Shown in pieces: positions 18,240-62,208 of a stretch of DNA of 64,000 nt. The translations under genes were made by a program, and so were the position numbers. The stretch spans positions 1 to 64,000 of the forward strand of contig NZ_JAMQBK010000002.1 in the NCBI RefSeq assembly GCF_023701485.1. Direction: 5' to 3'. Under the pieces are notes generated by a model. The model did no database searches. It was not told the origin of the DNA and saw only the letters and a program-made list of their open reading frames with translations. This DNA is from Aporhodopirellula aestuarii. Lineage in GTDB: Bacteria > Planctomycetota > Planctomycetia > Pirellulales > Pirellulaceae. How positions within the stretch are numbered: the first letter of the stretch is position 1; every line of letters starts with the position of its first letter.

Positions 18240-18298
18240 AGCGGACAAGCCGAAACGGTATCTCTCGAATTTGACGACCAACACAAGGAACACGAATC

Positions 18299-44400: not shown

Positions 44401-45840
44401 TCACGGCATCGAGATCGGACCGGGTTCGTTGATTTCCGTGGCCTTTGAGGCGTCACCGGGCATCTCCAGATGCTTAAACGCTTTGCGGTCCGGCTTGGAA
44501 CCCCCGGGGGCGGCATCCCGGTGCGGGGTAGGGTTGGTCGGGATCGTGTCGCCGGTCTGGTCGGTCCAACGTGTTAACAATGCACGAGCTTGGTTGAGTA
44601 CCTGCTCTTGCTCGGGATTCGAAGCGAGATTGTTTAACTGGTCGGGGTCGCGTCCAACGTGATAAAGCTCTTCCGCGGGACACGGGTTTTGAAAGACGTT
44701 CGATTGCGCGTCCGTCAGTTGCCCGGATTTATGTGCGGCCCAAAGTTCCTCTCCCGCACCGCCGATGTACGCTTCCACGCAAAGGTTTTGCTGGTCAGGA
44801 AAATTGTTGCGGATGTAGAGCCAATCGCCGAATCGGACGGACCGCTCGTGATTGCGGTAGACGTGCCAGTTATGTTCGGCGAAGACCATGTCACGAATGC
44901 TGGCCTTCGGATCCTTCAAGATTTTCACAAAGCTGACGCCTTGAATTCGAGGGTCTTTCTCGACGCCCGTGAATTCAAGAATCGTGGCTGCAACGTCGAT
45001 GGAACTGATCAGCCCCTCTACGACTGCCGGTTCGGATCGCCGCGGATCGTGAACGACAAATGGCGTTTTAATTCCGCTGTCGTACAACCGGGTTTTGCAG
45101 CGGGGAAACGGACGTCCATTGTCTGCCATCACGATGATGAGCGTGTTATCGAAAACATCCTGGCGTTTGAGTTCTGCGACAACCTCGCCAACAAAATGGT
45201 CGTACCGGCTGACTTCGTGATAGTAACTCGCGAGATCCTCACGCGTTTTCGGACCGTCAACCAGATAAGGCGGGACCTTCACGTCAGCGGGATCATATTT
45301 CGGTGCGTCCTCGTTGATCGACCAAGCACGGTGTGCGTCCGTGGAGGCAAACCAGCAAAAGAATGGTTTGTCTTTCGGACGGTCACGCAGTATTTCGACC
45401 CAATCTTCTTCCTTGCCGGGGCCTTTGCCTTTGGAGATTTTGGTGAACGCGACGTTCGCGTGATTGCCCATGTGATGCTTGCCCGACAAGACGGTGTAAT
45501 ACCCCGCGTTTTTCAACAACTCGGGAAACAACACGGATCCCGCGGGCAACTCGGTGTGCAATTCAGGGGCACCGGTGTTGTGCGGGTATCGCCCGGTGAT
45601 GATGCTGCACCGACTCGGACTGCAACTGCTCGTCGTCAGGTAGGCGTTGTCAAAACGCAAGCCACGGGCGGCCAACGCGTCGATGTTGGGAGTCTGCACA
45701 CTCGGGTGTCCGTAACATCCGAGGTCCTCCTGAGAAATGTCGTCGGCAATCAGAAACACGACGTTGCTGGGATCCGCCGCCGCGGAAACCGCCGCAAAGA
45801 CAAGGCAACCTAACGCTAAGATCACATACCGATAATTCAT
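44401..45840 (-). CDS. Secreted sulfatase (N-sulphoglucosamine sulphohydrolase-like)
   Basis: About 479 residues. The signal peptide starts at MNYRYVILALGCLVFAAVSA. Metal ligands: NVVFLIADDISQEDLGCYG. Formylglycine motif CSPSR with Cys73. Substrate-side residues: LSGKHHMGNH, FFCWFASTDAHRAW and VMADNGRPFPRCKTRLYDSG. This layout is that of sulfamidase/heparan-like sulfatases, a group that also acts on other sulfated sugars in marine bacteria. The frame is open to 45918; several upstream ATGs exist, but 45840 gives the cleanest signal. It lies 200 bases from the EamA gene and is near the agarolytic locus. Confidence 0.86.
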   Translation of the reverse strand: MNYRYVILALGCLVFAAVSAAADPSNVVFLIADDISQEDLGCYGHPSVQTPNIDALAARGLRFDNAYLTTSSCSPSRCSIITGRYPHNTGAPELHTELPAGSVLFPELLKNAGYYTVLSGKHHMGNHANVAFTKISKGKGPGKEEDWVEILRDRPKDKPFFCWFASTDAHRAWSINEDAPKYDPADVKVPPYLVDGPKTREDLASYYHEVSRYDHFVGEVVAELKRQDVFDNTLIIVMADNGRPFPRCKTRLYDSGIKTPFVVHDPRRSEPAVVEGLISSIDVAATILEFTGVEKDPRIQGVSFVKILKDPKASIRDMVFAEHNWHVYRNHERSVRFGDWLYIRNNFPDQQNLCVEAYIGGAGEELWAAHKSGQLTDAQSNVFQNPCPAEELYHVGRDPDQLNNLASNPEQEQVLNQARALLTRWTDQTGDTIPTNPTPHRDAAPGGSKPDRKAFKHLEMPGDASKATEINEPGPISMP

Positions 45841-46041
45841 GAGGGCAAATTCGTTTCGAGGCATGGGGATTTTCGCACTCATCATAGTCGACGTTTCGTG
45901 CCAAATGGAAATGCGCACCCGCCGGGCAAACTCATTCGCTGATGTCGACTCATCACTTGTGTAGGCAGCATCAAACGCGGCGGTGACGAGCGTTGTCGTT
46001 TGAGCATCATTGGGTTGGTTTTGAATTTCGGTTCGCTGAAT

Positions 46042-46935
46042 TCAGGTCAGCGGTTCAGAGCTTTGCGGCGCGATCCGCTCCTCGCTTAACCATGGCTGAA
46101 TCAACACCGAAATGAGGATGACCGCGGCACCAACGTAAAAACTGAAACTGACGTCACGATGATCGTGGAAGAGCAGCGAACCCAACGCGATTCCGTAGAC
46201 CGGTTCGAGGTTGTTCGCAAAGTTGATCGTGAAGACACTCAATCGCTCGAGCAGACGCACGTACACGTGATAAGCGTAGATCGTGCAGGCCAGTACCAAG
46301 ATCATCATCCATCCCCACTGGGAAACCGGCGGAATCCATGGTTTCAGGGTGGGGCCTAGTTCAGATGAACCGAAACACAAAAGTGCGGCGGCGCAAAACA
46401 TGGCCGATCCCGCCATTTGGTACGTAACGATGACAATGGGCGGCGCACGATGAAACAGTTGTCCATTGAAGATTGAAAACAAACACGCCAAGACTGCCGC
46501 CACAACCGCAACGATCACGCCAGTTTGAAAATGAGCTTGGCTGTAGTAGATAATCCCGACACCGCCTGCGGCAACGACGCCGAGTAGCAAGTTCAACGCG
46601 TTGAATCGGACCCGCGAGACCATCATTGGTTCCAGAACCGCAGTCCAAAACGAAACCGTCGCCATGCCGATCATGCAGACGGAAACCGACGCGATTTTGA
46701 CTGCGACAAAGAATAGGATCCAGTGAAGCCCCAACAGGAATCCGTTGCCCAACAGCATGGCAGCAACCTTCGTGTCGATCTTCAAACGCGATCGTAAAAC
46801 TGCCACTAAAATCAGTGCGGACAACAGGCTGCGCAGGAAAACCAGTTGAGTCGGGCTGAGGTCGATCAGGTTTCCAAGGACCGCGGTGAATCCCCACAAC
46901 AAGATAACGAAATGCAGTTTGATATAGTCGATCAC
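46042..46935 (-). CDS. EamA-family (DMT superfamily) transporter
   Basis: A 297-residue inner-membrane protein with ten hydrophobic helices in two repeated EamA halves: LHFVILLWGFTAVLGNLIDL and TQLVFLRSLLSALILVAVL in the first, VIVAVVAAVLACLFSIFNGQ and VYGIALGSLLFHDHR in the second. The GTG at 46935 fits the family's usual length; the frame is open to 47085, but those residues look non-coding. DMT carriers export metabolites such as amino acids or sugars; the substrate is not predictable. Between the sulfatase and the AraC gene, all on the - strand. Confidence 0.8.
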   Translation of the reverse strand: MIDYIKLHFVILLWGFTAVLGNLIDLSPTQLVFLRSLLSALILVAVLRSRLKIDTKVAAMLLGNGFLLGLHWILFFVAVKIASVSVCMIGMATVSFWTAVLEPMMVSRVRFNALNLLLGVVAAGGVGIIYYSQAHFQTGVIVAVVAAVLACLFSIFNGQLFHRAPPIVIVTYQMAGSAMFCAAALLCFGSSELGPTLKPWIPPVSQWGWMMILVLACTIYAYHVYVRLLERLSVFTINFANNLEPVYGIALGSLLFHDHRDVSFSFYVGAAVILISVLIQPWLSEERIAPQSSEPLT

Positions 46936-47314
46936 TGAAACCAACGATTGAAGGCAGATCGGAATCCCGCCTACGTTCACAGCGGACGAAGGATGTCGCG
47001 GTGCCTGCGGGATGTTCCAGTTGCGGAGTCTAAGGGAGCAGACGGATTCCGTTAAGATGGTCCCCGATTGGAGGATCAATCGCATTTCGTTTCTATCCAG
47101 ACCGGCAATTCCAAGCCAGCGGATCTGAAAACGAGCGACTGAATCGGTGAAATATTGAACTCTCGGTGAGTGTCACGTAGCCATCATGGCTGTGGTCACT
47201 GGAGCTTCTTACCCGGACCACGTCGTCGACAATGAACTGGTCTCAGATCACGCCGCGAATGACGCGTCATCGATTCACGTTCATCTTCTTGCGTTAGCTA
47301 ATGTAGCCGACGCG
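46936..47314. other. Intergenic region between EamA and AraC genes
   Basis: Roughly 380 bases. The 5' extension of the EamA frame (to 47085) is the only long frame and lacks membrane-like character. No repeat or terminator was identified. Confidence 0.35.
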
Positions 47315-48154
47315 TTATCTCGACCGGTAGTCACGCGGAGAGATGTGGTAGCGAGCCAAAAAGAGTCTGTTGAAATTTGCGAGATTGTTGAAACCGCAAC
47401 TGAAGGCGATGTCCGAAACGGTGCGTTTGCTTTCGAGCAATTCTCGAGCAGCCCGGCTGAGGCGTAGTTCGATAACGTATTCCTGGAACGTTCTGCCCAG
47501 CCGTTTCCGAAAATAGCGACTCAACGATTGAGGGTGCAGGCACGCGACTTTCGCGATGTCGGCGAGGCGGATTGTGTCCTGCCAGTGGGCGTCGATGTAA
47601 CTGAGAATCCTTTCGAGTCGCTTGTCCTGTTCGACGTCTTCGGACGCCATAAAATCATGACTGGCCATTTGTTCTCGCTGAGTGTCGGAGCTGAGAACGT
47701 CCAATAGCTCGATCAGGCGACTGAGTCGCTGCGGCCCGATGGGGGCTTTGAAAAGGCGTGTCATGACGCGACTGCCTTCTTTGCGAACCGGATCGGAGAA
47801 TTGCAGGCCGCGTGAGGCGTCTTGAATCAGTTGGCGAATGGAACGGCATTCCGCAAGATTGAAGAAGTCACCTCCCAGGGCGTCGATGCGAAATTGCACC
47901 ACCCGGGAGTGCGACTTCTTGCATTTCCAATTTTTGTAACGATGCGGCAGTAGAGGCCCGAACATGGCGAGATCACCGGGGGTATAGGTATCGAACTGAT
48001 CCCCAACCAACCGCTCACCGCTGCTCGCGATGATATGAGTGATCTCGATTTCGGGATGAAAGTGGTGAGGACAATCGAAGTCCTTGTCGATCCACTCCAA
48101 GCACCGAAACGACGCCTGCTCATCGACGGTGACTTTCTCGTAGATCATCTTCAT
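47315..48154 (-). CDS. AraC-family regulator divergent to the sugar operon
   Basis: A 279-residue regulator. The N-terminal cupin has histidines in CPHHFHPEIEITHI and a TPGDLAMFGPLLPHRYKN strand. The C-terminal two-HTH domain reads IRLADIAKVACLHPQSLSRYF and VSDIAFSCGFNNLANFNRLF, ending in the family motif YHISPRDYR. It is divergent from the isomerase-kinase-aldolase-enolase-GH2 operon with only 116 bases between the start codons, so it is the prime candidate to control that operon, probably as an activator responding to the sugar substrate. The ATG is at 48154. Confidence 0.92.
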   Translation of the reverse strand: MKMIYEKVTVDEQASFRCLEWIDKDFDCPHHFHPEIEITHIIASSGERLVGDQFDTYTPGDLAMFGPLLPHRYKNWKCKKSHSRVVQFRIDALGGDFFNLAECRSIRQLIQDASRGLQFSDPVRKEGSRVMTRLFKAPIGPQRLSRLIELLDVLSSDTQREQMASHDFMASEDVEQDKRLERILSYIDAHWQDTIRLADIAKVACLHPQSLSRYFRKRLGRTFQEYVIELRLSRAARELLESKRTVSDIAFSCGFNNLANFNRLFLARYHISPRDYRSR

Positions 48155-48270
48155 GTGAATTGCTCTGGTAACACATTGCGGGCGTGTTTTTTCGAAAACT
48201 GGTGAAGATAGTATAGGTCTTTGTGAGCCAAAGCGTAGTGGAGCCGGGGGCTACCTGGGATCTTGATGGG
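48155..48270. promoter_or_regulatory. Divergent control region between araC-type regulator and the sugar operon
   Basis: 116 bases. Contains the palindrome TTTTCGAAAA (48189-48198) and an AT-rich GATAGTATAG (48207-48216) that could be a -10 element for the rightward operon. AraC half-sites cannot be defined by eye. Confidence 0.4.
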
Positions 48271-49785
48271 ATGAATAACAACTCCACATTTGCGTTGCCA
48301 ACAAAAGGCATTCTGAACGATGTGCTATCCGAGATAGTGCGTCCGCCACGTCCACTCTCGCCGAGCAGGATTTTGATTGTTGCCTGTGGGGTGAAGATCC
48401 ATTTTCCGTGGGGGAAGGCGTGTCAGCGATACGATGCCGCGTACTCGGCGTTGTGCGAAGCCACGGCAGATCTGCCGGTTGAAATCGTTCGTGCCGCGGA
48501 GCCATTTGAGGATCCGGACGCACTCTGTGAGTTGCTCGACGGAGAACTGCGAGAGGGCCTGGCCGGAATCGTGTTCTTCCATGCCGCGTATACCGCGGGT
48601 GAAATCGGAAGTCATCTGGGCCGGTGGTTGACCGACCACAAAGTCCCACTGCTTTCATGGGCGTGGCCGGAGCCAGGCAACCGAGCGTCGAATGAAGCAA
48701 ACAGCCTGACGTGCCAAAACTTCCTGCAGCAAATGTGGACGCAAATGGAGGTGCCCTACGCTTGGTTGCACGAAGAGACTAATGCGTCGTCGCACGGCAT
48801 ATTGCAATGCTTTGCGCGGGCTGTGTTTGCTCGTGACAAGTTTCGACACTCTAAGTTTCTGCATGCCGGTGGCTCACGTGTGACGGCATTTTATGACGGC
48901 GAAGTCGACGAACTCGCGGTCATGCGAAACCTGGGGTGTCGTTTCGACCGGATAGATTTGGAAGCCGTCTTTCAGCACGCGAACAAACGTTTCACCGATG
49001 CCGATGTTATTCGTCTGAAAGACGCCATGATTGGGCATCCTGACTGCGCCAAGGTGAGCGTGCCTGATGAACAAATTTTGCAAACCTATCGATTCGGTTT
49101 AGCAATGCTGGATCTCGCGGCGGAGCACGGCTATATCGGTGCCACGGTGAAGAGTTGGCCTGAACTGTTTGATTGTTATCACTGCGCGATCGATGGCTCG
49201 GTGTCGATGATGAACGACTTTGGTTTCTGCGTTGCCGAAGAAGGCGAAATGAACGGGTTGCTGTCGTCGATGGCGTTGTGGTTGTTGTCCAACGGTGACG
49301 CCGTACCGACGATGATGGATTTATCGCTTTGGAAACTGAAGCAGGATCGACTCGGCATTTGGCATTGTGGTGCGTCTCCAACCCGGTTGCTCAAACCGGG
49401 GACTCAATTCGCCGCGACGCGTCACTCGATTTTGGAAAATGGTGACCCTGAAACGGCCGTTGGTTTGATGCTGGAGTTTCTCTTGGCCAACGGGCCGATC
49501 ACGGTCATGCGGTATCTCGCCCCCGATGCGAGTCGTTGGTTCGCGTTCGAGGGTGAGTTCGTTGACACGGAACTGGACTACCGAGGTACGTATGGATTGA
49601 TGAAGCCGACGGGCGATACCACGGTCGGACAGATCATGGGAACGATTTTTGACGCCGGCCTCGATCATCACTGGAGCGTCGGGTACGGCCATTGGCACGA
49701 GGAGCTTCGGATATTGAATCATTTCTGTGGGTTGAAGGAGATTCCACTTCGCCAATCAAACGCTAACTATGGGCTGAGTCGTTGA
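48271..49785 (+). CDS. L-fucose/L-arabinose isomerase-like protein
   Basis: A 504-residue cytoplasmic protein of the FucI-like fold, which interconverts aldoses and ketoses with a bound divalent metal. Family features: [15 protein letters not shown] near the start; [20 protein letters not shown]; then [19 protein letters not shown] with Glu323/324, [10 protein letters not shown] with Asp350, and GIWHCG with His365. These three positions correspond to the Glu, Asp and His metal ligands of the family. The start is the ATG at 48271; a GTG at 48223 would add 16 residues. It is the first gene of the operon; the kinase gene follows with a 2-base gap. D- or L-galactose and related sugars are plausible substrates from context. 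The exact substrate is unknown. Confidence 0.78.
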
Positions 49786-49787
49786 AA

Positions 49788-50930
49788 ATGCTGAGCCACC
49801 ATCATCAGGACAAACTCAACGCATTGGCCGATCGGCTTTTGTCAGCGGATGTGACGATCGATCGGTTGCCGGTGGTGATGGGATTTGATGCGTTCGTCGA
49901 TGAGTCGATTCGCATTGTTGGACAACGGCACTCGCCGGAGTCATATCTACCGATGCCGACCATTGCGGACTTTGGTGCGTGGGCCAACGCCGCTACGGGA
50001 CAGAGCGGTTTACGAGAATTCGTATGCGAGCAAGTGACCGCGGGCGGTTGCACGGTCAACATGGGCGACGGCATCGCGACGTTGGGGTTTCCGCTGACTG
50101 CATTTTCGGGAGTGGGGGCTCCGCCGCATCCAGTGTTCGCCGATTTCATTGCCAAGTGTGAGGCCGTTGACTCGCTCGGGATGGACCCTGGACGCGCGAT
50201 CGTCACTGAATTCGACGACGGCAAATTGATGTTCTGTTCGTTCAGTCATTTTGCCAACTTCACACCTTCGTATCTCCGCAAAAAGTTCGCCGACGGCGTG
50301 TTCCGAACCGCGTGCGAGCAGGCGTCGGGGATCGCGCTGACGAGCTGGTCGGTCTACCCCTACATGACGCAGTGTTGGAAATATCTGGTTGAGGAAGTCC
50401 TCGCGGGAATGTCACATCGCCCACATTTCTTTTTCGATCTCGCGGATCCCGCGAGCCGGACGGCAGACGCGTTGGTTGAGATGCTCGACGCCTTGAAGGG
50501 ATTTGAATCCATCGGCCGGGTCACATTGAGTGTCAACGGGAACGAAGCGAACCAGATCGCGAGAGCATTGAAGATCGAGGAAGCGGGAAGTGACGCGAAA
50601 TCCTGGGAACGTCTGGCCAACGAAATCCGGATGCGGGCCGAAATCAGCGAAACCAGCATTCATCTCATCGACTCGGCAACAACGGCAACCACGGAAATGG
50701 TCACAACGGTGAGCGGTCCGTACTGCATCAAACCCAAACGCAGTGTCGGAGCGGGTGATCGTTTTAACTCGGGATTCTTTGCCGGGCTGTTGTTAGAGCT
50801 CAACCCTGCCGATCGACTGCGACTCGGCAACGCCAGTTCGGGCTACTTCGTGCGGCGTGCCGAAAGCGCCTCATGGCCGCAACTTATTCAGTTCCTTCGC
50901 GAATGGGCGGCGGACGCAATCGTCTCTTAA
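49788..50930 (+). CDS. PfkB-family carbohydrate kinase
   Basis: A 380-residue kinase of the ribokinase/PfkB family. It has the substrate-binding [16 protein letters not shown] segment (the first PfkB signature) and the second signature [13 protein letters not shown] with catalytic Asp324 in the GAGD anion hole. The nucleotide region includes [12 protein letters not shown]. Members phosphorylate ketoses, ketose phosphates or keto-deoxy acids. It starts 2 bases after the isomerase stop (ATG at 49788; a TTG at 49782 would overlap it). Position between an isomerase and an aldolase points to phosphorylation of the ketose produced by the isomerase. Longer than E. coli PfkB by about 70 residues. Confidence 0.85.
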
Positions 50931-50943
50931 GAGGAACGAATTC

Positions 50944-51966
50944 TTGAAAACCTTAGATCAGAAACTCAATAACCTGCGCAGCAACCCGGACGCGACGGAC
51001 TTCATCATCGCGGATGCGAAGGATGCGGACATGGCGTGGGGGATCGCCTCTCCGGGGATGCCTTATCCACCGCAGAGTGAATCCCGGTTCTATTCCATGC
51101 CGGAGTTCATGGACCAAATGCGTGAGATGGTAGGCAGCGGGTACATCGATATTCTGTTGGCATCCAACTCGGCGATGAGTGTGCTGGCGCACCGTGAACG
51201 CTTGTTTGATGACAGCCCCGTCACGCCTGCGATACGTGCCAACGACACCACCGATGTCTGGATCAGTCGTGCGGCAAATTATCGGGACCAGCCGTCACGC
51301 CCATTCCGAACGAGTTTCTTGCACGAAGCTCAGTACGGAAGTCTAACGGCACCAGTAACCGAAAAACCGGTTGTTAACTTGGGGTTGTACTCGATGACGT
51401 TCAACAATGATCTCGATTCCGATATCAACAATTTGATGGCGTTTCGAGAGTTTCGCTTTGAAGCGGCTCAGTGCGGGTTCGAGTACTTCCTGGAAGTCTT
51501 TGCACCCAACGTTGAAAATTGCGGGATCGCACCGGAGGCCATTCCTTCGTTTGTGAACGACGCACTCGTTCGCGCTTTGGCGGGCGTCGCACGGGATCAC
51601 TGGCCCAAGTTTCTAAAGATTCCCTACTTCGGTCCGAAGCCGATGGAGGAACTGGCCGCGTATGACTCGGAGTTGATCGTTGGGATTTTGGGCGGCGGAA
51701 GCGGGACGACGTACGATGCATTCAAGCAGCTTTCCGAGGCTCAGAAGTATGGCGCCCGTGTTGCTCTGTATGGTCGCAAAATCAAGGATGCCGAACATCC
51801 GTTAACGATGGTTCGCTATCTGCGTGCGATTGTCGATGGCGATGTCTCTGCCGAAGAAGCCGTGAAGGCCTATCACGGCGATTTGCAAAAACTCGGCATC
51901 GCACCCAAACGCGACTTGGATCAAGACAGCGAACTGACCGCCCCCGAACTCAGCTACGCGCGTTAG
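50944..51966 (+). CDS. Class I (Schiff-base) aldolase-like TIM-barrel protein
   Basis: A 340-residue protein that resembles the DeoC/FbaB/LacD class of aldolases. The barrel strand FLKIPYFGPKP puts Lys225 where these enzymes form the Schiff base; a phosphate-binding loop follows as GILGGGSGTTYDAFKQ, and the last strand is GARVALYGRKIKDAEHP. The N-terminal FIIADAKDADMAWGIASPG is typical of the group. The start is most likely the TTG at 50944 with AAGAGGA upstream; no ATG fits, and the frame's upstream codons lie within the kinase gene. It would cleave the phosphorylated ketose into two three-carbon pieces. Exact substrate and stereochemistry unknown. Confidence 0.7.
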   Translation: MKTLDQKLNNLRSNPDATDFIIADAKDADMAWGIASPGMPYPPQSESRFYSMPEFMDQMREMVGSGYIDILLASNSAMSVLAHRERLFDDSPVTPAIRANDTTDVWISRAANYRDQPSRPFRTSFLHEAQYGSLTAPVTEKPVVNLGLYSMTFNNDLDSDINNLMAFREFRFEAAQCGFEYFLEVFAPNVENCGIAPEAIPSFVNDALVRALAGVARDHWPKFLKIPYFGPKPMEELAAYDSELIVGILGGGSGTTYDAFKQLSEAQKYGARVALYGRKIKDAEHPLTMVRYLRAIVDGDVSAEEAVKAYHGDLQKLGIAPKRDLDQDSELTAPELSYAR

Positions 51967-52072
51967 GGGACGTCATGAGATCAAGTAGGTCGTCTTTCGA
52001 ATTTTCGCAAACAGCGTGCGTCCACGCATTTTGCATTTCGATGAACCCGCCTGATTGCAAGTGGGCCCGATC

Positions 52073-53065
52073 ATGACGACCGCATTTGAGCAACTGTTGC
52101 GAGATCGCGGATTCCTGCAAACCGCGACGCCGAGTTTGAAACCGCTCACCGGTGGCGTTTCCAGTGAAATCTATCTTGTTGAAGACGGAGATCGACGATT
52201 CGTTGTCAAGCGAGCACTGGCGAAACTGAAGGTACAGCAGGACTGGTTCGCCGACACGTCGCGGAATCAAACCGAACAAGCCTACATGCGATACGTCGCG
52301 AGTTTTCGTCCCGACGCAATGCCCGAAATCTATCACTGCGATGCCGAGGCGGGATTGTTCTCGATGGAGTATCTCGAGGAGTTTCAAAACTGGAAAGATG
52401 ATCTCTTAGCGGGACATTGTGATGTCGACTTAGCGCGCCGAGCTGGCGTTCTGGTTGGTGAAATTCACTCACGCACGTGGGGAGATCCTCGCGTCAAAGC
52501 GGACTTTGACACGATTCCCAATTTCGATCAGCTCCGGATTGATCCTTATCTCAGAGGGACCGCACACAAGCACGCTGATTTGGCAACGAGAATACTAGCG
52601 GAGGCGGATCGGTTGACACGGAGCCGTCAATGTTTGATTCATGGCGACTACAGTCCCAAGAATATCATGCATCTGAATGGCCGATTGGTTCCGCTGGACT
52701 GCGAAGTCGCGTGTTTTGCCGATGCCGCTTTCGATCTCGCGTTTTTGCTGAATCATCTGTTTCTGAAAAGTCTGTTCCACGTCCCGGTCGAACTGCCGAT
52801 GCCGGAAATAATCTCCGCCGTGCGAGAGGGCTACGGCGACGGTAATCCAGAGCATTACCGCGAGGTCGAAACGCGTGCCGCGACGTTGTTGCCGATGCTC
52901 ATGCTGGCACGTGTCGATGGCAAGAGTCCGGTGGAGTACCTGAACGTCGATCAACAAAATTTCGTTCGCTCGTTTACACACGAACACATTTTGCGTGACG
53001 GCATTTCCTTAAAACAAATCGCAGAGAACTGGTTCCAAACTCTTCAGCCATTGATAAATAGATGA
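52073..53065 (+). CDS. APH-fold phosphotransferase (methylthioribose/homoserine kinase-like)
   Basis: A 330-residue kinase of the aminoglycoside-phosphotransferase fold. The ATP-site Lys lies in RRFVVKRALAK; the catalytic loop is LIHGDYSPKNIM (Asp192, Asn197), with the metal Asp209 in VPLDCEVACF. Unlike resistance enzymes, it sits inside a catabolic operon, so it probably phosphorylates a sugar or sugar acid, as methylthioribose kinase does. The start MTTAFEQ at 52073 is chosen; six further codons are open upstream. It is 106 bases after the aldolase, the only real gap in the operon, and its TGA overlaps the enolase ATG. Confidence 0.82.
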   Translation: MTTAFEQLLRDRGFLQTATPSLKPLTGGVSSEIYLVEDGDRRFVVKRALAKLKVQQDWFADTSRNQTEQAYMRYVASFRPDAMPEIYHCDAEAGLFSMEYLEEFQNWKDDLLAGHCDVDLARRAGVLVGEIHSRTWGDPRVKADFDTIPNFDQLRIDPYLRGTAHKHADLATRILAEADRLTRSRQCLIHGDYSPKNIMHLNGRLVPLDCEVACFADAAFDLAFLLNHLFLKSLFHVPVELPMPEIISAVREGYGDGNPEHYREVETRAATLLPMLMLARVDGKSPVEYLNVDQQNFVRSFTHEHILRDGISLKQIAENWFQTLQPLINR

Positions 53066-54354
53066 AAATTGAATCGATTGACGCCTATCAGATTTATGAC
53101 TCCCGTGGCAATCCGACCGTTGAAGTCGAGGTCACATTGGGCAGTGGAAAGAAAGGTTATGGACTTGTCCCCAGCGGAGCATCGACCGGACAATTCGAAG
53201 CCTTGGAACTTCGCGACGGTGACAAGCATTTTTTTCGCGGTAAGTCAGTCTTGCAAGCCGTTGAAAATGTTCGTTCCAAAATCGCAACCGCGTTACGCGG
53301 ACACGATGTTTTTGATCAATCCGGAATCGATCACGCCATGATCGAACTCGACGGGACACCGAACAAAGCGTGTTTGGGGGCGAACGCGATTCTAGGTGTG
53401 TCGATGGCGGTGGCGAATGCGGCTGCCGCCGAAAAGGGCGTGCCACTTTACGAATCCCTCGGTGGGACCGATGGCAATTTGTTGCCGCTTCCTGAAATTC
53501 AAATTATCGGAGGCGGAGCTCACGCGAACTGGCGAACCGATGTTCAAGATTTCCTGGTCATTGCGACCGGAGCAAAGAACTATGCCGAGACGCTGGAGAT
53601 CACCTTCAACGTTTATCACGCGGCGGGTGATATCATGCGTGAGCGAAACAAGTATTACGGTTTGGCAGACGAGGGCGGCTATTGGCCTGAGTTCGAAACC
53701 AACGAAGCTGCGTTCGACGTGTTGACCGAAGCGATGGTACGAGCGGGCTACACGCCAGGCAAAGAAGCATCGATTTCGCTGGATATCGCGGCCAGTGATC
53801 TTTATGACGAAACGACGGGGACTTACCACTTTCGCCTCGAAGATCGTCTATTCACGTCTGAAGAGTTTTCGTCGCTATTAATCGAATGGTGCGAAAAGTA
53901 TCCGATCATCTCGATCGAGGATCCCGCTGCGGATACCGATTGGGACGGCTGGGATCGGATCAATCGGGCGATAGGCCATCGCGTCCAAATCGTCGGCGAT
54001 GATCTGTTTACGACTAATCTCACGCGCATCCGAGAAGGGATTCGTCGCCAGGCCGCCAACAGCGTTTTGATCAAGTTGAATCAGATCGGAACAGTGACCG
54101 AGACAATGGACGCGATTCGCATGACGCAGGAGGCGGGCTGGTTACCGGTCGTTTCGGCGCGCAGTGGTGAGACCGAAGACGCTTTTATTTGTCACCTCGC
54201 GGTAGCGACCAATGCCGGTCAGTTGAAGGTTGGTTCGTTTGCCCGCAGCGAGCGAATGGTGAAGTGGAACGAGGTTCTACGCATCGAACGACAACTCGGT
54301 CGTCGGGCACGTTTCGAGGGCGGCAATATCTTCACGCAACTGGCACGCGTTTAA
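53062..54354 (+). CDS. Divergent enolase paralogue with altered active site
   Basis: A 430-residue protein alignable end to end with enolase. Kept: SGASTG loop, His154, Glu204 (DEGG), metal ligands Asp241, Glu286, Asp313, the base Lys338 and Lys389. Changed: the Glu corresponding to yeast Glu168 is Asp163 (VQDFL for IQEFM), and yeast His373 is Ala366 (VSARSGE for VSHRSGE). Both altered residues face the C3 hydroxyl that leaves when 2-phosphoglycerate becomes phosphoenolpyruvate. The core machinery for proton removal is therefore intact, while the leaving-group pocket is opened. Cotranslated with the APH-fold kinase (ATGA overlap) and 12 bases before the GH2. It is unlikely to be the cell's housekeeping enolase. 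An enolase-type dehydration of a larger 2-phospho-sugar acid is my inference. Confidence 0.85.
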   Translation: MKIESIDAYQIYDSRGNPTVEVEVTLGSGKKGYGLVPSGASTGQFEALELRDGDKHFFRGKSVLQAVENVRSKIATALRGHDVFDQSGIDHAMIELDGTPNKACLGANAILGVSMAVANAAAAEKGVPLYESLGGTDGNLLPLPEIQIIGGGAHANWRTDVQDFLVIATGAKNYAETLEITFNVYHAAGDIMRERNKYYGLADEGGYWPEFETNEAAFDVLTEAMVRAGYTPGKEASISLDIAASDLYDETTGTYHFRLEDRLFTSEEFSSLLIEWCEKYPIISIEDPAADTDWDGWDRINRAIGHRVQIVGDDLFTTNLTRIREGIRRQAANSVLIKLNQIGTVTETMDAIRMTQEAGWLPVVSARSGETEDAFICHLAVATNAGQLKVGSFARSERMVKWNEVLRIERQLGRRARFEGGNIFTQLARV

Positions 54355-54366
54355 CGACGAGACAAT

Positions 54367-56989
54367 ATGATGAAGACAATCCGAACGCTGTTTCTGGTGG
54401 TTGTTTCATGTGCCTGCGGTGAAAGCATTGCCGCCGATCGGGCCTTGAAAGATTCGCCACGAACCGTAGTTGATTTCAATTTCGATTGGCAGTTTGGCTT
54501 ACAAGAGTTTGCGGACTCGGATGTTCTGCGTCACGATTCCCGCAGCCAACCTGCTCTTGTTAACGACCGCCAAGGAATTGATTGGACCCCCGTCACGCTT
54601 CCGCATGATTGGAGCATTCGCGAGTCCTACCGACAAGAAAACACTGCTGCGAGTACAGGGTTTCTTCCTGGTGGAATCGGTTGGTACCGAAAAACGTTCT
54701 CGTTGCCGGAATCGGATCGAGGCCGATCCATTCGGATTGAGTTCGATGGGGTGTATTACAAGTCTGACGTTTGGATCAACGAGCACCATCTCGGATTCCG
54801 TCCGAGTGGATATAGCAGTTTCTCGTACGACCTCACCCCACACCTGCGTTTTGGCAGCAAACCGAATCGGATCACCGTGAGAGTCGATCACTCTGCCTAT
54901 GTTGACTCGCGTTGGTATACCGGATCGGGAATCTACCGAAACGTTCGACTGGTCAAGACTTCGCCGGTTAACGTACCGCAATGGGGAGTGCAGATCACGA
55001 CCCCGCAGGTCACCTCTTCCTTTGCGGACATTCACGTCACGACGGAGGTTGTCGGAGAAGAGGAGGCTGTTGATCCGGCCAGTATTGCTGGCGACGAAAA
55101 CGACGGCATCGAGGTAGAAACGCGTGTTATTGATGCTAACGGCGTGATCACGGAGTCGGTGCAAGCCGAAATGAAAGACGGGCTGTACGAGAGCCAACTC
55201 AGGGTGCTCAATCCCTCTCGGTGGAGCGTTGATTCGCCAAACCTGTCGTCGTTAATCACGACCATTCGGCAAAACGGCATCGTGGTCGATCGCGTCGAGA
55301 CGCAATTTGGTATTCGAACGTTTGAGTTTGATGCGGACAAAGGGTTTTCACTCAACGGAGTGCCGATGAAGATCAAAGGCGTTAATCTGCATCATGACGC
55401 GGGGGCGTTGGGAGCGGCGGTGCCAAAGTCTGTTTGGGAATACCGCGTCGGGAAACTGAAGTCGATCGGAGTGAATGCGATTCGCATGTCGCACAATCCT
55501 CATTCGGTTGAGTTGATGGACGTGTGCGACCAAATGGGAATGTTGGTCATGGATGAATTCTTCGATGAGTGGGATCGGCCCAAGGTCAAGAGTCTTCGCT
55601 ATATCGGTGACCAAGGTGCGAAAGACCTGAACGAGGCACGTGGTTACAGCGAGTGTTTTGAGCGTTGGGCAGAGCGTGATTTGAAGGACTTGATTCGACG
55701 AGACTTCAACCATCCATCGGTGATCATGTGGAGCATCGGCAACGAAATCGAGTGGACCTTCCCGGCCTATTCGAAAGCGTTCGCGATGCTGAATCCGGAT
55801 GCCGTCGAAAGCAAAACCATTCCCGTCTTTGACCCGTCGATTGTGAAACCGGTGTTCGATCAAGTTTCCGGTGGTGACGATCCACTCGCCAAAATCGCGA
55901 AGCAATTGTCAGCATGGGTGAAGGAAGTCGATACCTCACGTCCGGTCACGTGCGGAAGCGTTCGTCCATCTCTGGCAGCGGTCAGCGGGTATCTCGATGC
56001 GGTTGACGTTGCCGGATTCAACTATCGAGCAGAATGCTACGATGCGGCCCACGAAACGTACCCTGAAATGAAAATCATTGGCTCTGAAAATTGGGGAGCC
56101 TATTCCGAATGGAAGAACGTCCTGGATCGAGACTTCGTCAGCGGCATGTTTGCTTGGACGGGGTTTGCCTATTTGGGCGAGGCAGGGCCGTGGCCTCGAA
56201 AGGGACTCAATCTATCGTTCTTCGACTATGCCGGGTTCAAAACGCCGCGAGGGCACTTCTTCGAATGCTTGTGGAAAGATGAGCCGAAGGTTTACATGGT
56301 CACAACACCGTCTGCCGAATCGGAATACTCTTTCTCGCAGGAAGACGGATGGCAGTTTGAGATGCAAATGCGAGACCCTCCGTTTTGGGGTGCGTTGAGG
56401 AAATGGGAATGGTACCGCGTGAACGAACACTGGGATTACCAACCCGATCAAGACATTATCGTTCAGGTCTACACGAATTGTGACGAGGCAGAGTTGTTCC
56501 TGAATAACAAGAGTTTGGGAAAGCAAGCTCTTGCAGACTTCCCGGACGATCATGTGATCAAATGGTTGGTTCCGTACGCTGCGGGTGAGTTGACCGTCAA
56601 AGGCTACGCGGAGAATGGCGTCCACGCGGGAGTACACTCTCGCCACGAGCGGTGAGTTTGCCGAAATTGAGTTGTCGTCCGACAAAAACACTCTCAAGGC
56701 GGATGGGTATGATATCGCACACGTTCGTGTGAGATTACTCGACGCGTTTGGAAGACGAATCAATGATCCGGCGATAAAAGTTCAGTTCCAGGTCAACGGC
56801 GACGCCGAACTTCTCGCGGTTGATAACGGATGGGAGATGAACGTCGATTTTCACTATCAATCAACGGTCCTCACCCACAATGGACAAGCGTTGGGATTGA
56901 TTCGATCAGGTCGCGATTGCGGAAGGTGCGAGGTGATTGTTTCGGCGGCAGGCATCGTCAGCAAACCGCTGTCTCTCAACGTGCGGTGA
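54367..56989 (+). pseudogene. Secreted GH2 beta-galactosidase-like enzyme, frameshifted near the C-terminus
   Basis: The first frame (54367-56655, 762 residues) encodes a signal peptide, GH2 sugar-binding domain ([19 protein letters not shown]), immunoglobulin-like domain and catalytic barrel: acid/base Glu460 in SIGNEIEW, nucleophile Glu574 in IGSENWG. It ends abruptly with unrelated residues and a TGA at 56653-56655. The expected C-terminal domain continues in another frame to 56989 (EFAEIELSSDKNTLKADGYD to SLNVR), the shift lying near 56630-56645 and fitting one extra base. The catalytic domain is intact, so the short form might work; alternatively it is a decay or sequencing error. It belongs to the operon by spacing (12 bases after enolase) and would release galactose from oligosaccharides. 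Confidence 0.82.
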
Positions 56990-57167: not shown

Positions 57168-59708
57168 TTACCGGACGTCGATCGTAATCGGGCGACTTTG
57201 GAGGTTGTCTGCGTGAGCACGGATGGTTGCGACGCCGGACATTCCGGTCGCCTGGACCAACAACAGGCAACGTCCCTGGTGCGTGACCACTCGGTTCGAT
57301 TGATACTGAGTGACGGTCTTGCCTGATCCGTTGTCGACGCCCAGGACACGTACGGCACCCTCGATCTCAAAGACCACGTCCAACTCCTGGTCTCTAACGG
57401 GGATGCCATCTGCATCGACGAGTTGTGCGACCACGTGGGCGACATCGCGGTTGTCGACGTCCAAATCGGTTGTGTCGGGCGTCAACGAGACGGACGCGGG
57501 TGGACCGGCTGTTTCTAAGCGATCGCGGATGACCGCATCGCAGTGAACGGCTCTCGCTTCCAGGACGCCCGGTTCATAAGGGACCAGCCACTTAAAAATG
57601 CGGTCGGGGAAGTCCGACAAACTCTTGATGCCGAGCGACCGTCCGTTGAGAAGCACTTCGACGCGATCGGTGTTGGAATAGACTTCCACAACGACGTCAT
57701 CACCCGGTGTGTAGTCCCAATGATGATTGACCGAATGCCAAACCCAAGTGCGTTTGGTCCATGCGTCCGGACTTTCGGTGCCGATGACTCCCGAGGTCGC
57801 ATCGACGTGATAATCCGTTTGAGGCAACGTTTGGGTTGCGAGGTAAAGGTGAGGTTCGTCACACCACAACGTTTTCATCATGTGGTACGACGGCTTTTTG
57901 AAACCCGCGGTATCTAAAAGACCACTGAGGACTCCTTTTCGCGGCCAGTCTTCGCGGGCTTCGCCCATGTAGTCGATGCCCGTCCAAAGAAACACGCCTG
58001 AGATGAACGGTCGCTCTAACACGGCTTTCCACTCATGCCACTGGGCAACGTTCTCGGTTCCCATGACCGACTTTCCAGGGAAGTGTTTTCTCGAATAGTC
58101 GTAGACAACTCTTCGGTAGCTATAACCGACCACATCGAGTGCATCGGTGTAGCCAGTCACATGACTCACCGAGGGAAGGATGCAGTTGGAGATCACCGGA
58201 CGAGTCGTGTCCATCTCCCGCGTCCACTGAGCGAGTTTTTTAGCGGTGTCGGCGAGAACATAGGTGCCATCCGGAATGCTTTGGTACCGTTCGCGAACCT
58301 CGTCAGGCGTCAAATGCGGAGGTGTCCAAAAGTAATTCCCTGACGCGTCTGCATCAAAATATCCCGATGCTTCTCGGTATTTTGGGTAAGTCCACTCGAT
58401 CTCGTTTCCGATGCTCCACTGAAAGATCGAAGGATGGTTGCGGTCACGACGCATCGTCGCTTTCAAGTCTCGTTCGGCCCAGTCTTGGAAAAACTCCGCA
58501 TGGCCACGGGTAATCCGATCGTCATGCTGTTCGGCCATATTGAGACGTTTGTCTTTGGGGTTATCCCATTCGTCGTAGAACTCTTCTTGGACGAGAAAGC
58601 CCATCCGATCACAGAGGTCGAGAAATTTCTCCGAGGCCGGGTTGTGGGCGGTTCGAATCGCATTGCAACCGCCTGCCTTCAACTTGGATAAACGGCGTTC
58701 CCAAACACCTGTCGGAACTGCGGCTCCGACGAGTCCAGCGTCGTGATGGAGGCACACCCCTTGAATCAGCGTATGTTCGCCATTGAGATAGAAACCTGAT
58801 TCCGCGTCAAACTTGATTTCGCGAAACCCGAATGGAGTTTGATAGGAATCGATCACCTCGCCGTCGTGCATGATCGTCGTGTCGGCGACGTATTGAGACG
58901 GATCATCGAGATTCCAAAGGCGGGGCGAGGTCACCGAAAGGTCTTGATGGAACGTGTGCGTGGCTTCAGCCGAGATTTCGGCTGTCAATTCATCGGTCGC
59001 AACCACGTCTCCGGATGAGTCAACTATTTTCGTTAAGAGTTGAAACGTTTTGGGACGATCGAACGCATTTCGAACTTCGACGTCGATGGCAACTTCGGAT
59101 ATTTCCCTGGATACTGTCGGCGTCGTTACGAAGGTTCCTCCGATCGGAACATGCAGTTTGTTCGCTCGGATTAGTTTGACGTCGCGATAGATGCCCGAGC
59201 CAGTGTACCAGCGGCTGTCCGCGTATCGCGAGTGATCGACTTTCACCGCAAGGACGTTGTCTTCGCCCGTTGCGTTGAGATATTCGGTGACGTCGAAGAA
59301 GAATGGCGAGTAACCGTAAGGATGAAACCCGAGTTTGACACCGTTGAGCCAGATCTCGGCTCGGTTGTAGATCCCATCGAAGTACACATAGGTAACGTGA
59401 TCGTCATCGACGTTGGTTTCAAAGTGTTTTCGGTACCATCCGATTCCGCCTGGAAGATAGGCCGTGCACCCTTCCAAGCGTTGATCGAAAGGTGATTCGA
59501 CGCTCCAGTCATGAGGCAATTGCACATGCCGCCATGCGGTATCGTCAACGTCGACGTCGTGAGCGGGTTGTTCTTGAAGTGAAAAGAGCCAACCGGAATT
59601 GAAGTCGACCGCGCCTGAGTCACCGCCGTGAACGTTGGAGGCCGTTGTCAACGCCGCGACAACGAACATGAAAAGTCGCAGCGACGAACGGAGGTGGCTC
59701 ATGTTCAT
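57168..59708 (-). CDS. Secreted GH2 beta-galactosidase-like enzyme
   Basis: An 846-residue exported hydrolase with signal [22 protein letters not shown]. It carries the GH2 jelly roll ([35 protein letters not shown]), an Ig-like domain, and the barrel with acid/base Glu436 in [10 protein letters not shown] and nucleophile Glu552 in MGTENVAQW. It ends with DUF4982-like and invasin-like beta domains ([18 protein letters not shown]). It is complete, unlike its paralogue at 54367, with which it converges and shares layout. Gene order with GH117, GH16 and GH50 suggests action on agar- or porphyran-derived oligosaccharides, releasing D-galactose from non-reducing ends. Confidence 0.9.
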
Positions 59709-59797: not shown

Positions 59798-61117
59798 CTA
59801 TTTCACCTTTTGATACTTTTGGATGTACATCCAACCTTTGGGGCCCGCGTTCCATTTCAAGACGTGACTGAGTCCCCATTCGATCCCGCCATGAGGTGTA
59901 TTCTCAGGATCGTTCGGACGAAACAGCCCCGCGGCTTCGGGCATGTCGATAGCGGAACCCATGATTTCAAAATTGACACCGTCTTCGGCGTACTGAATCG
60001 TCTTCGCTTCGGGCCCGTCTTGGTGTTGGAGAATCGCGATTCCGGTTCCATATTTCCAGACCATGACTTCATGTCCGGTGTTGGTGATCGGATTGAATTC
60101 TGATTTGATGAACGGTCCGGTCGGGTGATCCGCAATCGCGACTCCCCACTTCACCTGTTTCTTGAGACCGCAGCACGGGTTGCACCACCGCTGGCAATCT
60201 TCATCTTCAAAACAAATGCATTCACCTTTGTAGTAAAGATAGAACTTGTCGCGGTAATGAATCAGACATGGATCGTGAACCGCGTTGTTGTCGAAATACT
60301 GCTCGTTCGTGTAGGTCGGTCGTAGGACCGGTTCGTCAACTTTTGTCCATGGGCCGTCCGGTGATTCGGATTTGGCCATCCCGATCACATTGCGATTGTA
60401 GATGCCGTCCACGTCACCCGCAGCTTGATAGATGAGATAGTAGACGCCGTCATGGACGAAGATCTCGGTTGTGAAAACGGAGCGATGGTCAAAAGAGCTT
60501 TCGGGACCTCGTGTGACCGCTGGACCTTGTTCTTCCCACGTTTCTCCATCCGTTGAGGTTGCGAAATAGAGATCGTTCAGGTCCCAGGGAGCTAGTTTCT
60601 TTGTGTCGTGAGTGAGGCTGTAGGAATACCAAACGTAGTATTTCCCGTTTACCTGGATAACCGCACTCGGATCCCGCCGTGTGTAGGTCGGATCAGGAGC
60701 CAAATCACCTTTCAACAAAGACGATTTGAAACGGATGTTCCAGTCTGGATTCATCGGGTTGTCGATTTCACATCCATCGGCCCGGTAGCGTTCTTCTCGA
60801 ATGGTCGCAGCACTTTTTTTCGCCTTCCTCAATCCGATCGCTAGACCGGTTGCCGGTTCGACGCCGCGTTTCTCAGCGAACATGTATCCGTCGATTGCGA
60901 AACGCAGAGTCTTGGGATCACGATTGCCAATCGAAATAGCAAATCCACCATCGTCACGCGTCGTGGCCGAAACGTTGTCTTCCACGACGAGCACAGAGAC
61001 ACCCGCCAGCGGGCTCCCCGATTCGGAATCGGAGACGACACCTTGAAATCCCTGACCACATGCAACCGTGGTGAGAAACATCGAAACGGCAGAGAACAAA
61101 ACGGCTCGATACGACAC
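59798..61117 (-). CDS. GH117 exo-alpha-1,3-(3,6-anhydro)-L-galactosidase with N-terminal carboxypeptidase-regulatory domain
   Basis: A 439-residue exported enzyme. After a signal (MSYRAVLFSAVSMFLTTVA, near a lipobox-like Cys) comes a CarboxypepD_reg-like beta domain (GVVSDSESGSPLAGVSVLVV), then the five-bladed GH117 propeller: RRDPSAVIQVNGKYYVWYS, AVHDPCLIHYRDKFYLYYKG, NTGHEVMVWKYGTG and GPEAKTIQYAEDGVNFEIM. His349 in TGHEV corresponds to the unusual histidine general acid of this family, and Asp residues in RDPS and HDPC to its acidic partners. Family members cleave neoagarobiose to 3,6-anhydro-L-galactose and D-galactose. A cysteine cluster (CICFEDEDCQRWCNPCC) may bind metal or form disulfides. 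It follows GH2 on the same strand. Confidence 0.87.
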   Translation of the reverse strand: MSYRAVLFSAVSMFLTTVACGQGFQGVVSDSESGSPLAGVSVLVVEDNVSATTRDDGGFAISIGNRDPKTLRFAIDGYMFAEKRGVEPATGLAIGLRKAKKSAATIREERYRADGCEIDNPMNPDWNIRFKSSLLKGDLAPDPTYTRRDPSAVIQVNGKYYVWYSYSLTHDTKKLAPWDLNDLYFATSTDGETWEEQGPAVTRGPESSFDHRSVFTTEIFVHDGVYYLIYQAAGDVDGIYNRNVIGMAKSESPDGPWTKVDEPVLRPTYTNEQYFDNNAVHDPCLIHYRDKFYLYYKGECICFEDEDCQRWCNPCCGLKKQVKWGVAIADHPTGPFIKSEFNPITNTGHEVMVWKYGTGIAILQHQDGPEAKTIQYAEDGVNFEIMGSAIDMPEAAGLFRPNDPENTPHGGIEWGLSHVLKWNAGPKGWMYIQKYQKVK

Positions 61118-61271: not shown

Positions 61272-62135
61272 CTATTCAAGACGCCAGGTTCGAATCCAAT
61301 CGTACTGCGTCGTGCGTTCTTCCTTCGTCGCCGTGGCAACTAATCCTCCGTCGTCGGGGACCGGGTTCCAGTCGTACGTCTCAATCGCCATCTGATAGTA
61401 AGACGGCACGTCCCAATCGACGCTAGGCTTCAGCGAATAGACGTATTTTCCGTCGAGATAAAACCGGAGTTCTCGCGGTGATTTCCACCAGGCGCCGTAG
61501 ACGTAATAGCGTTCCCAGTTCGGGGTTTCCGTTCTCACCGAACTTTGGATCTGGATCTTTTCGGGCCCTTCTTTTGTGGCGTGTTGGATCGCGTTGGAGT
61601 GGAAAATCTGATCCCAGTTTCGCCCCCAGCTAGCTGTTTGTTCGGTCGTCCGCCCCACGCATTCTTGGATGTCGAACTCCAATCTCCTTGCATCTTTGGG
61701 GCGGGGCATCAACCAGAACGTCGACGACATTTCGGTCTTGTTGGCCTTCATGCGGCATTCGTAGTACCAGCCCACGGTTCCGGGATTGACCGATCGAACG
61801 ATACCGCCGTGATACTTGAACTCGTTCCCTTTGATTACGACGGGCGAGTCCAGCACGCCCACCGTCACCCGTAGGTTGCCTTCTTCGACGACGACGCTTT
61901 CCTCTTGGAATAGGCCTGGAGGACGACCTATCCAGCCCCAGTGCTTGGAAGCGGGATTTTTGTCCCATTTTGTCGCATCCAATGAGTCGCCATCGAATTC
62001 ATCTGAGAGCAGATCGACCTGTTGCCAAACCTTTCCGACTGGCCGTGGGTCTTCTCCTTCGGCAAAGAAGGGTTGCGTTTGTGCCATGCCGGTACTCAGC
62101 ATGCAGGTGAATATCAAAAGTGACATGAACTTCAT
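61272..62135 (-). CDS. Secreted GH16 beta-agarase/porphyranase-like enzyme
   Basis: A 287-residue exported enzyme (signal MKFMSLLIFTCMLSTGMA) made of one GH16 jelly roll. The catalytic motif is RLEFDIQECVG: Glu153 nucleophile, Asp155 and Glu158 acid/base, in the insertion-type E-x-D-x-x-E form used by agarases, kappa-carrageenases and porphyranases. Supporting blocks: DEFDGDSLDATKWDKN, GIVRSVNPGTVGWYYECRMK, SSTFWLMPR and RFYLDGKYVY. It would cut internal beta-1,4 bonds of agar or porphyran outside the cell. Which of the two cannot be settled by eye. It lies between GH117 and GH50. Confidence 0.88.
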   Translation of the reverse strand: MKFMSLLIFTCMLSTGMAQTQPFFAEGEDPRPVGKVWQQVDLLSDEFDGDSLDATKWDKNPASKHWGWIGRPPGLFQEESVVVEEGNLRVTVGVLDSPVVIKGNEFKYHGGIVRSVNPGTVGWYYECRMKANKTEMSSTFWLMPRPKDARRLEFDIQECVGRTTEQTASWGRNWDQIFHSNAIQHATKEGPEKIQIQSSVRTETPNWERYYVYGAWWKSPRELRFYLDGKYVYSLKPSVDWDVPSYYQMAIETYDWNPVPDDGGLVATATKEERTTQYDWIRTWRLE

Positions 62136-62208
62136 GGTTTTCCTTCAGGCAGTTGTGTTACGGTTGTTGCGAGCGGCTGCGGGGCGGAACGACGTTCGCG
62201 ACATTGGC

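Follow-up and report, generated by a model that had tools for sequence, protein, structure and literature searches.

The 64,000-nucleotide stretch analyzed here (the window; positions 1 to 64,000 of contig NZ_JAMQBK010000002.1 of Aporhodopirellula aestuarii) contains an operon that encodes, in this order, an aldose-ketose isomerase (ISO), a ketohexokinase-like kinase (KHK), a class I aldolase (ALD), a kinase of the APH fold and a variant enolase (ENO), followed by a GH2 glycosidase. Comparison with other genomes reveals a conserved pathway cluster that includes a new enolase-kinase module. The APH-fold kinase and the variant enolase probably catalyze successive steps, and the phosphorylated three-carbon acid on which they act is probably not D-2-phosphoglycerate. 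A more specific reading, to which we give an even chance, is that ENO belongs to a widespread and unrecognized subfamily, annotated as ordinary enolase, that would act on 2-phospho-L-glycerate, yielding either phosphoenolpyruvate (PEP) or the D form, and would be fed by its own APH-fold L-glycerate 2-kinase. The module would open L-configured sugars to catabolism in bacteria and a haloarchaeon, and for marine bacteria it would complete a six-step isomerase route for L-galactose. Few enzymes of central metabolism are as conserved as enolase, and an altered subfamily with a partner kinase is hidden under its name in several phyla and a haloarchaeon. If the proposal is correct, it adds a second substrate to the enolase reaction and an entry of L-sugars into glycolysis, hints at the way in which marine bacteria exploit porphyran L-galactose, and provides a marker for genomes.

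The open reading frames and their Pfam matches bear out the original prediction of five enzymes and a GH2 glycosidase facing a divergent AraC-family regulator, and the block is confirmed as a true operon. The regulator (47315..48154, minus strand) matches Pfam HTH_18 and HTH_AraC. The plus strand carries ISO (48223..49785), of the FucI/AraA fold; KHK (49782..50930), a PfkB-superfamily kinase that matches Pfam Khk (PF25270, 7e-45) and PfkB (5e-7); ALD (50944..51966, TTG start at 50944), of the Schiff-base type; the APH-fold kinase (52073..53065; Pfam APH, 7e-18), whose longest frame opens at a TTG at 52055; ENO (53062..54354); and the GH2 gene (54367..56655). The genome comprises 9.07 Mb in 165 contigs, and the close contig matches to Rhodopirellula rubra and Rhodopirellula sallentina place it near Rhodopirellula.

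ENO matches the phosphopyruvate hydratase family TIGR01060 over its full length with 551 bits, above the cut-off of 300. It is a paralogue, since a housekeeping enolase that is 50% identical to it is encoded elsewhere in the same genome; a housekeeping-type enolase is present in all six genomes searched for one, with an internal stop in one copy. We compared six housekeeping enolases with 44 enolases of the SARSG type to which ENO belongs (eight operon-type, eight from plasmids, and 28 of 29 found by a motif search, one having been lost to a filter on the N-terminal motif). Residues Asp163 and Ala366 of ENO occupy the positions of yeast Glu168 and His373, both of which we take to lie on the leaving-group side of the active site. 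The first position is Asp in 44/44 SARSG-type and Glu in 6/6 housekeeping enzymes, and the search motif placed no demand on this Asp. The second is Ala in 44/44 and His in 6/6, although in the 28 motif-found sequences this Ala is a product of the selection. The Glu168-His373 pair of ordinary enolases is thus absent from ENO and from every SARSG-type sequence, all of which also replace NGG with [GS]GG and KTG with K[VI]G. By contrast, the residues that we assume to be the metal ligands (yeast Asp246, Glu295 and Asp320), as well as Lys345, Glu211, Lys396, Arg374, Ser375, Ser39 and His159, are unchanged in 8/8 operon-type, 36/36 other SARSG-type and 6/6 housekeeping enolases. ENO therefore shares the fold family, the metal ligands, the phosphate site and the Lys345, Glu211 and Lys396 positions of TIGR01060 enolases, whereas the SARSG type is altered at four sites and commonly lies beside an APH kinase. 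A degenerate enolase was ruled out, because the catalytic set is intact in 44/44. That the leaving-group side is altered in the same way throughout suggests a substrate other than ordinary D-2-phosphoglycerate, the simplest alternative being its enantiomer, derived from an L-sugar.

A single branch (support 100/100) of an unrooted tree, some inner branches of which are weak, parts the SARSG enolases from the housekeeping ones; 27 of the 29 motif-found sequences passed a further length filter and were included. The eight operon enolases form one clade (100/99), with Trp at positions 157 and 208 in 8/8 and Arg at 158 in 7/8.

The partner kinase falls outside its nearest named family, methylthioribose kinase (55.6 bits against an NCBIfam cut-off of 275). 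A plasmid search returned 32 records with the APH kinase as query and 1120 with the enolase, 12 of the 1120 being listed. The pair is found on plasmids or records of Rhizobium, Pararhizobium, Sinorhizobium, Paraburkholderia, Rhodococcus, Methylobacterium and the haloarchaeon Haladaptatus. Besides Persicobacter, eight stretches from the 32 APH-matching records were inspected and 8/8 carry the variant enolase, a biased sample in that five were also in the enolase list; H24, H27 and H30 were chosen from the APH list alone. A test independent of the kinase was made with a DNA pattern for the motif SARSGETED, with the backward pattern as a control. The pattern occurs in 31 of 392 planctomycete genomes, and the backward control matched none of those listed. 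All but one (L213) of the 30 matches outside the window are enolases, and an APH homologue lies within 3 kb of 21 of these 29, as compared with none of the six housekeeping enolases, for which flanks of only about 1.0-1.5 kb were covered. The APH profile was built partly from the loci tested; plain BLAST without a profile gives the same 21. The kinase and the enolase hence constitute a module of their own.

The neighbourhoods of the module outside the isomerase loci hint at its product and its supply. Two Rhizobium plasmids (L147, 9578-20051; L148, 9627-20097) carry the variant enolase, the APH kinase, an ABC transporter, a gene annotated as C-terminal binding protein, which by its name we take to be a 2-hydroxyacid dehydrogenase relative, and a PEP carboxylase. 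The cluster appears catabolic and undescribed. The carboxylase is on the same strand as the APH gene with only the C-terminal-binding-protein gene in between, a position that fits PEP as the product. Fumarylacetoacetate-hydrolase-type genes flank the pair in Rhodococcus, and aldolase/citrate-lyase-type and mandelate-racemase-type genes lie near it in Haladaptatus. In pathways for L-sugar acids, L-glycerate or L-glyceraldehyde can be set free by enzymes of the fumarylacetoacetate-hydrolase and aldolase/citrate-lyase types, and these neighbours could feed the module in the same manner.

Conservation of the sugar operon was analyzed at several distances. Eleven proteins were compared by tblastn with 30 stretches; 29 of these surround an aldolase relative, each in a different genome other than that of the window, and one (L039) comes from the contig of the window beyond its end. 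The block from the sulfatase to the second GH2 gene, which enclose the operon, recurs in R. rubra and R. sallentina of the same genus with 67-97% identity per protein. A scan of 84,980 species for the isomerase, based on exact short peptide patterns and hence limited to close relatives, found six loci, in these two species, Pelagicoccus mobilis and three verrucomicrobial metagenome-assembled genomes. Among 384 genomes of the class of Pelagicoccus, 18 have an isomerase match at E 1e-20 or better; in six of these, counting Pelagicoccus itself, the relatives are at least 45% identical, one genome having two copies. A search of 72,556 plasmids yielded 11 isomerase records, two of them Persicobacter plasmids at 34-36%, and 392 planctomycete genomes gave 29 matches including that of the window, the others being 21-29% identical over partial length. 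Weaker matches were left out of the final set of 15 isomerase loci, which includes the window. Among the distant relatives of 29% identity or less, the surroundings of three on plasmids were inspected. A weaker relative in Chlorohelix (L109, 3086-9314) lies near genes for a pyrophosphate-dependent phosphofructokinase-type enzyme and a nitrite/sulfite reductase, and this locus resembles a sulfosugar cluster.

The gene set recurs across three phyla in these 15 loci, which answers the search for co-occurrence that the original prediction had called for. In all of the 15 but L101, the isomerase is accompanied by both a sugar kinase and an aldolase, the aldolase gene of L104 being cut off by the end of the contig, and an AraC gene lies beside the isomerase or kinase genes in 12. 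The APH kinase and the variant enolase occur together in eight (the window, L099, L100, L102, L103, L108, L142 and L143), and neither occurs without the other. Copies from Verrucomicrobiota and from one Persicobacter plasmid carry an additional aldehyde dehydrogenase (ALDH); in total, an ALDH of this shared type is present in six loci (L102, L103, L108, L141, L142 and L143). The six-step set of isomerase, kinase, aldolase, ALDH, APH kinase and enolase is complete in the Verrucomicrobiota-type loci L103, L142 and L143 and on the Persicobacter plasmid L108. The individual enzymes vary: the sugar kinase is KHK in five loci (the window, L099, L100, L102 and L103), another PfkB kinase in nine and neither in one, and the aldolase is of class I in 12 and of class II on the two Persicobacter plasmids, with an additional class II-like gene in L144 and L145. 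The other-PfkB kinase is encoded upstream of the isomerase on both Persicobacter plasmids, and in Persicobacter JZB09 the ALDH, APH and enolase genes are on the strand opposite to the kinase, isomerase and aldolase genes. The replacement of enzymes by non-homologous ones with retention of the chemistry argues for a pathway rather than an inherited neighbourhood. In a further genome (G042; L042, 9100-11999) the aldolase (79%) and the ALDH that follows it are both intact, with KHK and ENO fragments on either side; the ENO piece contains a stop, and no intact ENO adjoins the aldolase.

The observed gene content, gene order, conservation and active-site changes are the basis on which we infer the substrates, the stereochemistry and the PEP product of an 'L-side' hexose pathway that would be complete and would most likely serve L-galactose from a red-algal galactan; we regard this proposal as equally likely to hold or to fail. 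When an aldolase for ketose-1-phosphates cleaves a hexulose derivative, the glyceraldehyde formed carries no phosphate; an ALDH converts it into glycerate, which a kinase acting at O2 turns into 2-phosphoglycerate, the kind of substrate that enolases use. ISO would accordingly isomerize L-galactose to L-tagatose, KHK would phosphorylate it to L-tagatose-1-phosphate, and ALD would cleave this into dihydroxyacetone phosphate (DHAP) and L-glyceraldehyde. An ALDH, clustered in all five copies of the APH-ENO pair outside Rhodopirellula and presumably encoded elsewhere in Rhodopirellula, would produce L-glycerate, the APH kinase would form 2-phospho-L-glycerate, and the variant enolase, with its active site altered where the leaving group departs, would convert it to PEP. 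If D-glycerate were the intermediate, there would be little reason to have a kinase dedicated to the acid and a modified enolase.

The pathway idea of the original prediction is thereby largely upheld: conserved synteny and red-algal-type glycosidases alongside support a path devoted to a hexose from galactan, the role of the enolase in completing the route is retained, and L-galactose, one of the examples named there, is the substrate preferred here. The suggested formation of a bisphosphate by the two kinases is not sustained. The APH kinase tracks the enolase and not the isomerase, also in loci where no isomerase relative was seen, and most likely phosphorylates a three-carbon acid. What had been predicted did not extend to the ALDH found in other copies, to the altered active site of the enolase or to the anhydrogalactose-type genes outside the window described below.

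Of the first three enzymes, ISO shares the overall fold of L-fucose and L-arabinose isomerases. Its residues Glu340, Asp366, His482 and His483 are invariant in an alignment of 18 sequences and may include the Glu, Asp and His ligands of the metal. KHK belongs to the prokaryotic ketohexokinase family, scoring 154 bits with Pfam Khk against a gathering score of 35. Sequence searches of the PDB gave no meaningful match for the isomerase or the kinase, and for the aldolase only weak ones to LsrF. The AlphaFold2 model of ALD (pLDDT 86) retrieves with Foldseek LsrF, Methanocaldococcus jannaschii ADH synthase and an archaeal fructose-bisphosphate aldolase as the best matches (E 1e-10 to 1e-7; query TM about 0.52-0.57). 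The TIM barrel together with Lys224, invariant in 16 aligned sequences and probably the Schiff-base lysine, identifies ALD as a class I aldolase of the LsrF/DhnA type. Among 26 other planctomycete loci with relatives of ALD (51-57% identity), 14 have FucA-like genes next to the relative, and a lactate dehydrogenase-like gene is present as well in 13 of these 14. The FucA-like neighbours, as in the loci of the planctomycete-verrucomicrobial microcompartment (PVM), hint at L-fuculose-type ketose-1-phosphates as substrates.

The choice of L-galactose is based on genomic context. The Pelagicoccus isomerase is directly preceded by a GH29 gene whose product matches the exo-alpha-L-galactosidase BpGH29 (7snk, 7ljj) with 345 bits, the next distinct protein scoring 245. 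BpGH29 takes part in porphyran breakdown, according to excerpts of PMC12316285. The genome of the window has 34 matches to the Pelagicoccus GH29 protein, the best being 43% identical, and the GH2 and GH117 genes of the window likewise speak for this sugar. Genes for 3,6-anhydro-L-galactose (AHG) catabolism had been reported as absent, which holds within the window; a likely AHG-type set lies just past it, at about 64.8-77.5 kb. This set comprises 2-keto-3-deoxygluconate-kinase-like, Eda-type aldolase, RhaT-like, KduD-like, ALDH and mandelate-racemase-type genes, a second GH117-like gene and a YtfQ/YtfR-like galactofuranose-type ABC transporter, several of which score under the cut-off of the family named. 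The operon itself was ruled out as the AHG route, the likely AHG genes being different ones. The genome also encodes a galactokinase above the family cut-off. With the AHG-type genes nearby and this galactokinase, L-galactose is the agar and porphyran sugar left without a visible route.

Several observations weigh against this assignment. Foldseek ranks L-arabinose isomerases at the top for ISO, although it is about equally near to L-fucose isomerases, and the fold therefore has no power to choose between L- and D-galactose. The sole named family that ISO matches is the sulfoquinovose isomerase SftI. An L-galactosidase-like gene adjoins only one locus, that of Pelagicoccus. The three Rhodopirellula operons lack an ALDH, and the nearest ALDH in the genome of the window, 51% identical to that of Pelagicoccus, lies beside a gene that by eye resembles EF-P. 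Seven isomerase loci are devoid of the APH-ENO pair; two of them (L104 and L141) reach a contig edge before its place, but in L101, L107, L140, L144 and L145 the ALDH, APH and ENO genes are all absent from the stretch examined and a contig edge offers no excuse. Conversely, some genomes that carry the pair show no connection with algal sugars, and eight of the 29 motif-found enolases (L192, L195, L204, L205, L206, L211, L212 and L215) have no APH homologue in the stretch examined, L211 and L212 being located either on a short contig or close to where the contig stops. Finally, a verrucomicrobial route for L-galactose via dehydrogenases is already known from excerpts of PMC12632266.

Ordinary use of L-fucose was ruled out by chemistry: a 6-deoxy sugar leads to lactaldehyde, and the acid derived from it offers nothing that an enolase could eliminate as a leaving group. 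Other alternatives retain the gene set and change the molecules. The variant enolase could be a 2-phosphoglycerate epimerase that has lost its leaving-group machinery and in which Lys345 and Glu211, on opposite faces, would invert C2 and convert the L form into the D form for the housekeeping enolase. We consider this unlikely. The replacements at 163 and 366, with their presumed roles on the leaving-group side, the retention of Lys338, Glu204 and the metal ligands, the ubiquity of the housekeeping-type enzyme in the genomes searched and the racemases of the wider enolase superfamily are in line with it, but the sequences do not demand it, and the PEP carboxylase beside the Rhizobium module fits PEP at least equally. 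A D-galactose route is quite improbable. It would proceed via D-tagatose-1-phosphate, D-glyceraldehyde and D-glycerate to ordinary 2-phosphoglycerate, with the enolase duplicated for flux. D-galactose is the main agar sugar, L-arabinose isomerases can act on it, the resemblance of ISO to these and to L-fucose isomerases is equal, and GH2 beta-galactosidase-like genes flank the operon; the galactokinase, however, already provides a path for this sugar, and the uniform Glu168-to-Asp and His373-to-Ala changes are needless for an enolase on D-2-phosphoglycerate.

Two further alternatives rest on a different leaving group. A route resembling sulfoglycolysis would isomerize a 6-sulfo or 6-O-sulfated hexose, phosphorylate it at C1 and cleave it to DHAP and a sulfo-aldehyde, from which ALDH and the APH kinase would form a 2-phospho-3-sulfo acid and the enolase would expel sulfite or sulfate to give PEP. 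The match of ISO to SftI accords with this scheme, as do the alteration of the leaving-group pocket of the enolase, the sulfatase and EamA transporter near the operon, and the 25%-identical ISO relative near the nitrite/sulfite reductase gene in Chlorohelix. The sulfoglycolytic Embden-Meyerhof-Parnas pathway 2 (sulfo-EMP2; SqvD/SftI, SqiK, SqiA) likewise employs a FucI-family isomerase, a ketose 1-kinase and an aldolase giving DHAP, as described in excerpts of PMC9594981. Its kinase and aldolase differ from those of the operon, though, and ISO reaches only 88 bits against the NCBIfam equivalog cut-off of 700, which places it outside the SftI/SqvD family. No sulfite-handling genes are named in the annotated Rhizobium and Rhodococcus stretches, and the sulfoquinovosidase family NF007746 is unmatched in the genome, a weak argument since none of 14 control genomes passes the cut-off. 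On balance, a sulfosugar as the substrate is also rather improbable. A scheme for the 6-O-methyl-D-galactose of porphyran is very unlikely; cleavage of this sugar would lead to 3-O-methylglycerate, and methanol would be the leaving group in the enolase step. Porphyran carries such methylation (excerpts of PMC12316285) and the reaction would require an enlarged leaving-group pocket, but the APH-ENO module is found far from agar contexts, and no methanol-handling gene was noticed among the families recorded in the parts of the window searched, although no search aimed at such genes was made.

The proposed L-galactose pathway resembles several known systems in part. L-galactose is 6-hydroxy-L-fucose, and the FucI-FucK-FucA pathway and its planctomycete PVM version share with the operon the succession of isomerase, ketose 1-kinase and aldolase. 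The three enzymes of the operon belong to other families, the aldehyde product is processed further by ALDH, the APH kinase and the variant enolase, and no shell-protein family is listed for the genes of the block. The PVM itself is described in excerpts of PMC4207490. The lgu pathway of Luteolibacter LG18 for L-glucose and L-galactose, in Verrucomicrobiota, begins with an L-galactose dehydrogenase and continues through galactonate and tagaturonate; no isomerase route appears in the excerpted text (PMC12632266). Glycerate kinases of classes I-III (PMC2063504) have in common with the APH-fold enzyme the proposed reaction type, from glycerate to phosphoglycerate, and differ from it in fold and in the proposed L-specificity. 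The phosphoglycerate cytidylyltransferase CpgD has also been given 2-phospho-L-glycerate in vitro, but it is an enzyme of lipid synthesis that prefers the D form (excerpts of PMC12275187 and the preprint PMC13228409). Enolase goes unmentioned in both texts, and 2-phospho-L-glycerate can be purchased. In the open-licence PMC literature no description of the gene set or of an L-glycerate 2-kinase was found, 2-phospho-L-glycerate as a tried enzyme substrate was found in the CpgD papers only, and the word enolase is absent from the main text of the sulfo-EMP2 paper (PMC9594981).

Glycosidase genes of a red-algal type adjoin the operon. The GH2 glycosidase at its end is beta-galactosidase-like, with Pfam Glyco_hydro_2 domains and a GalA/GalB-like match below the cut-off. 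Its frame is broken before the C-terminal domain, the remainder being in another frame (56615-56989), possibly as a result of decay or of an assembly error; the R. rubra copy reads into an in-frame stop after residue 561, and that of R. sallentina is open over 853 residues. A second GH2 gene (57168..59708, minus strand) is convergent to the first, and on the upstream side lie an EamA-type transporter (46042..47085, minus; Pfam EamA) and an S1-type sulfatase (44401..45918, minus; Pfam Sulfatase), the nearest solved relative of which is S1_8. All three are kept with the operon in the three Rhodopirellula genomes. The gene at 59798..61117 (minus strand) encodes a GH117 member, predicted to be a 3,6-anhydro-alpha-L-galactosidase, that strongly matches the solved enzymes 4ak5 (264.6 bits) and 3p2n (261 bits). 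Adjoining it, two genes at 61272-63933 have no Pfam match at E 1e-5. Elsewhere in the window, at 16947-20083, a group of arsenic genes includes a methyltransferase domain fused to ArsD, followed by an ArsA-type ATPase.

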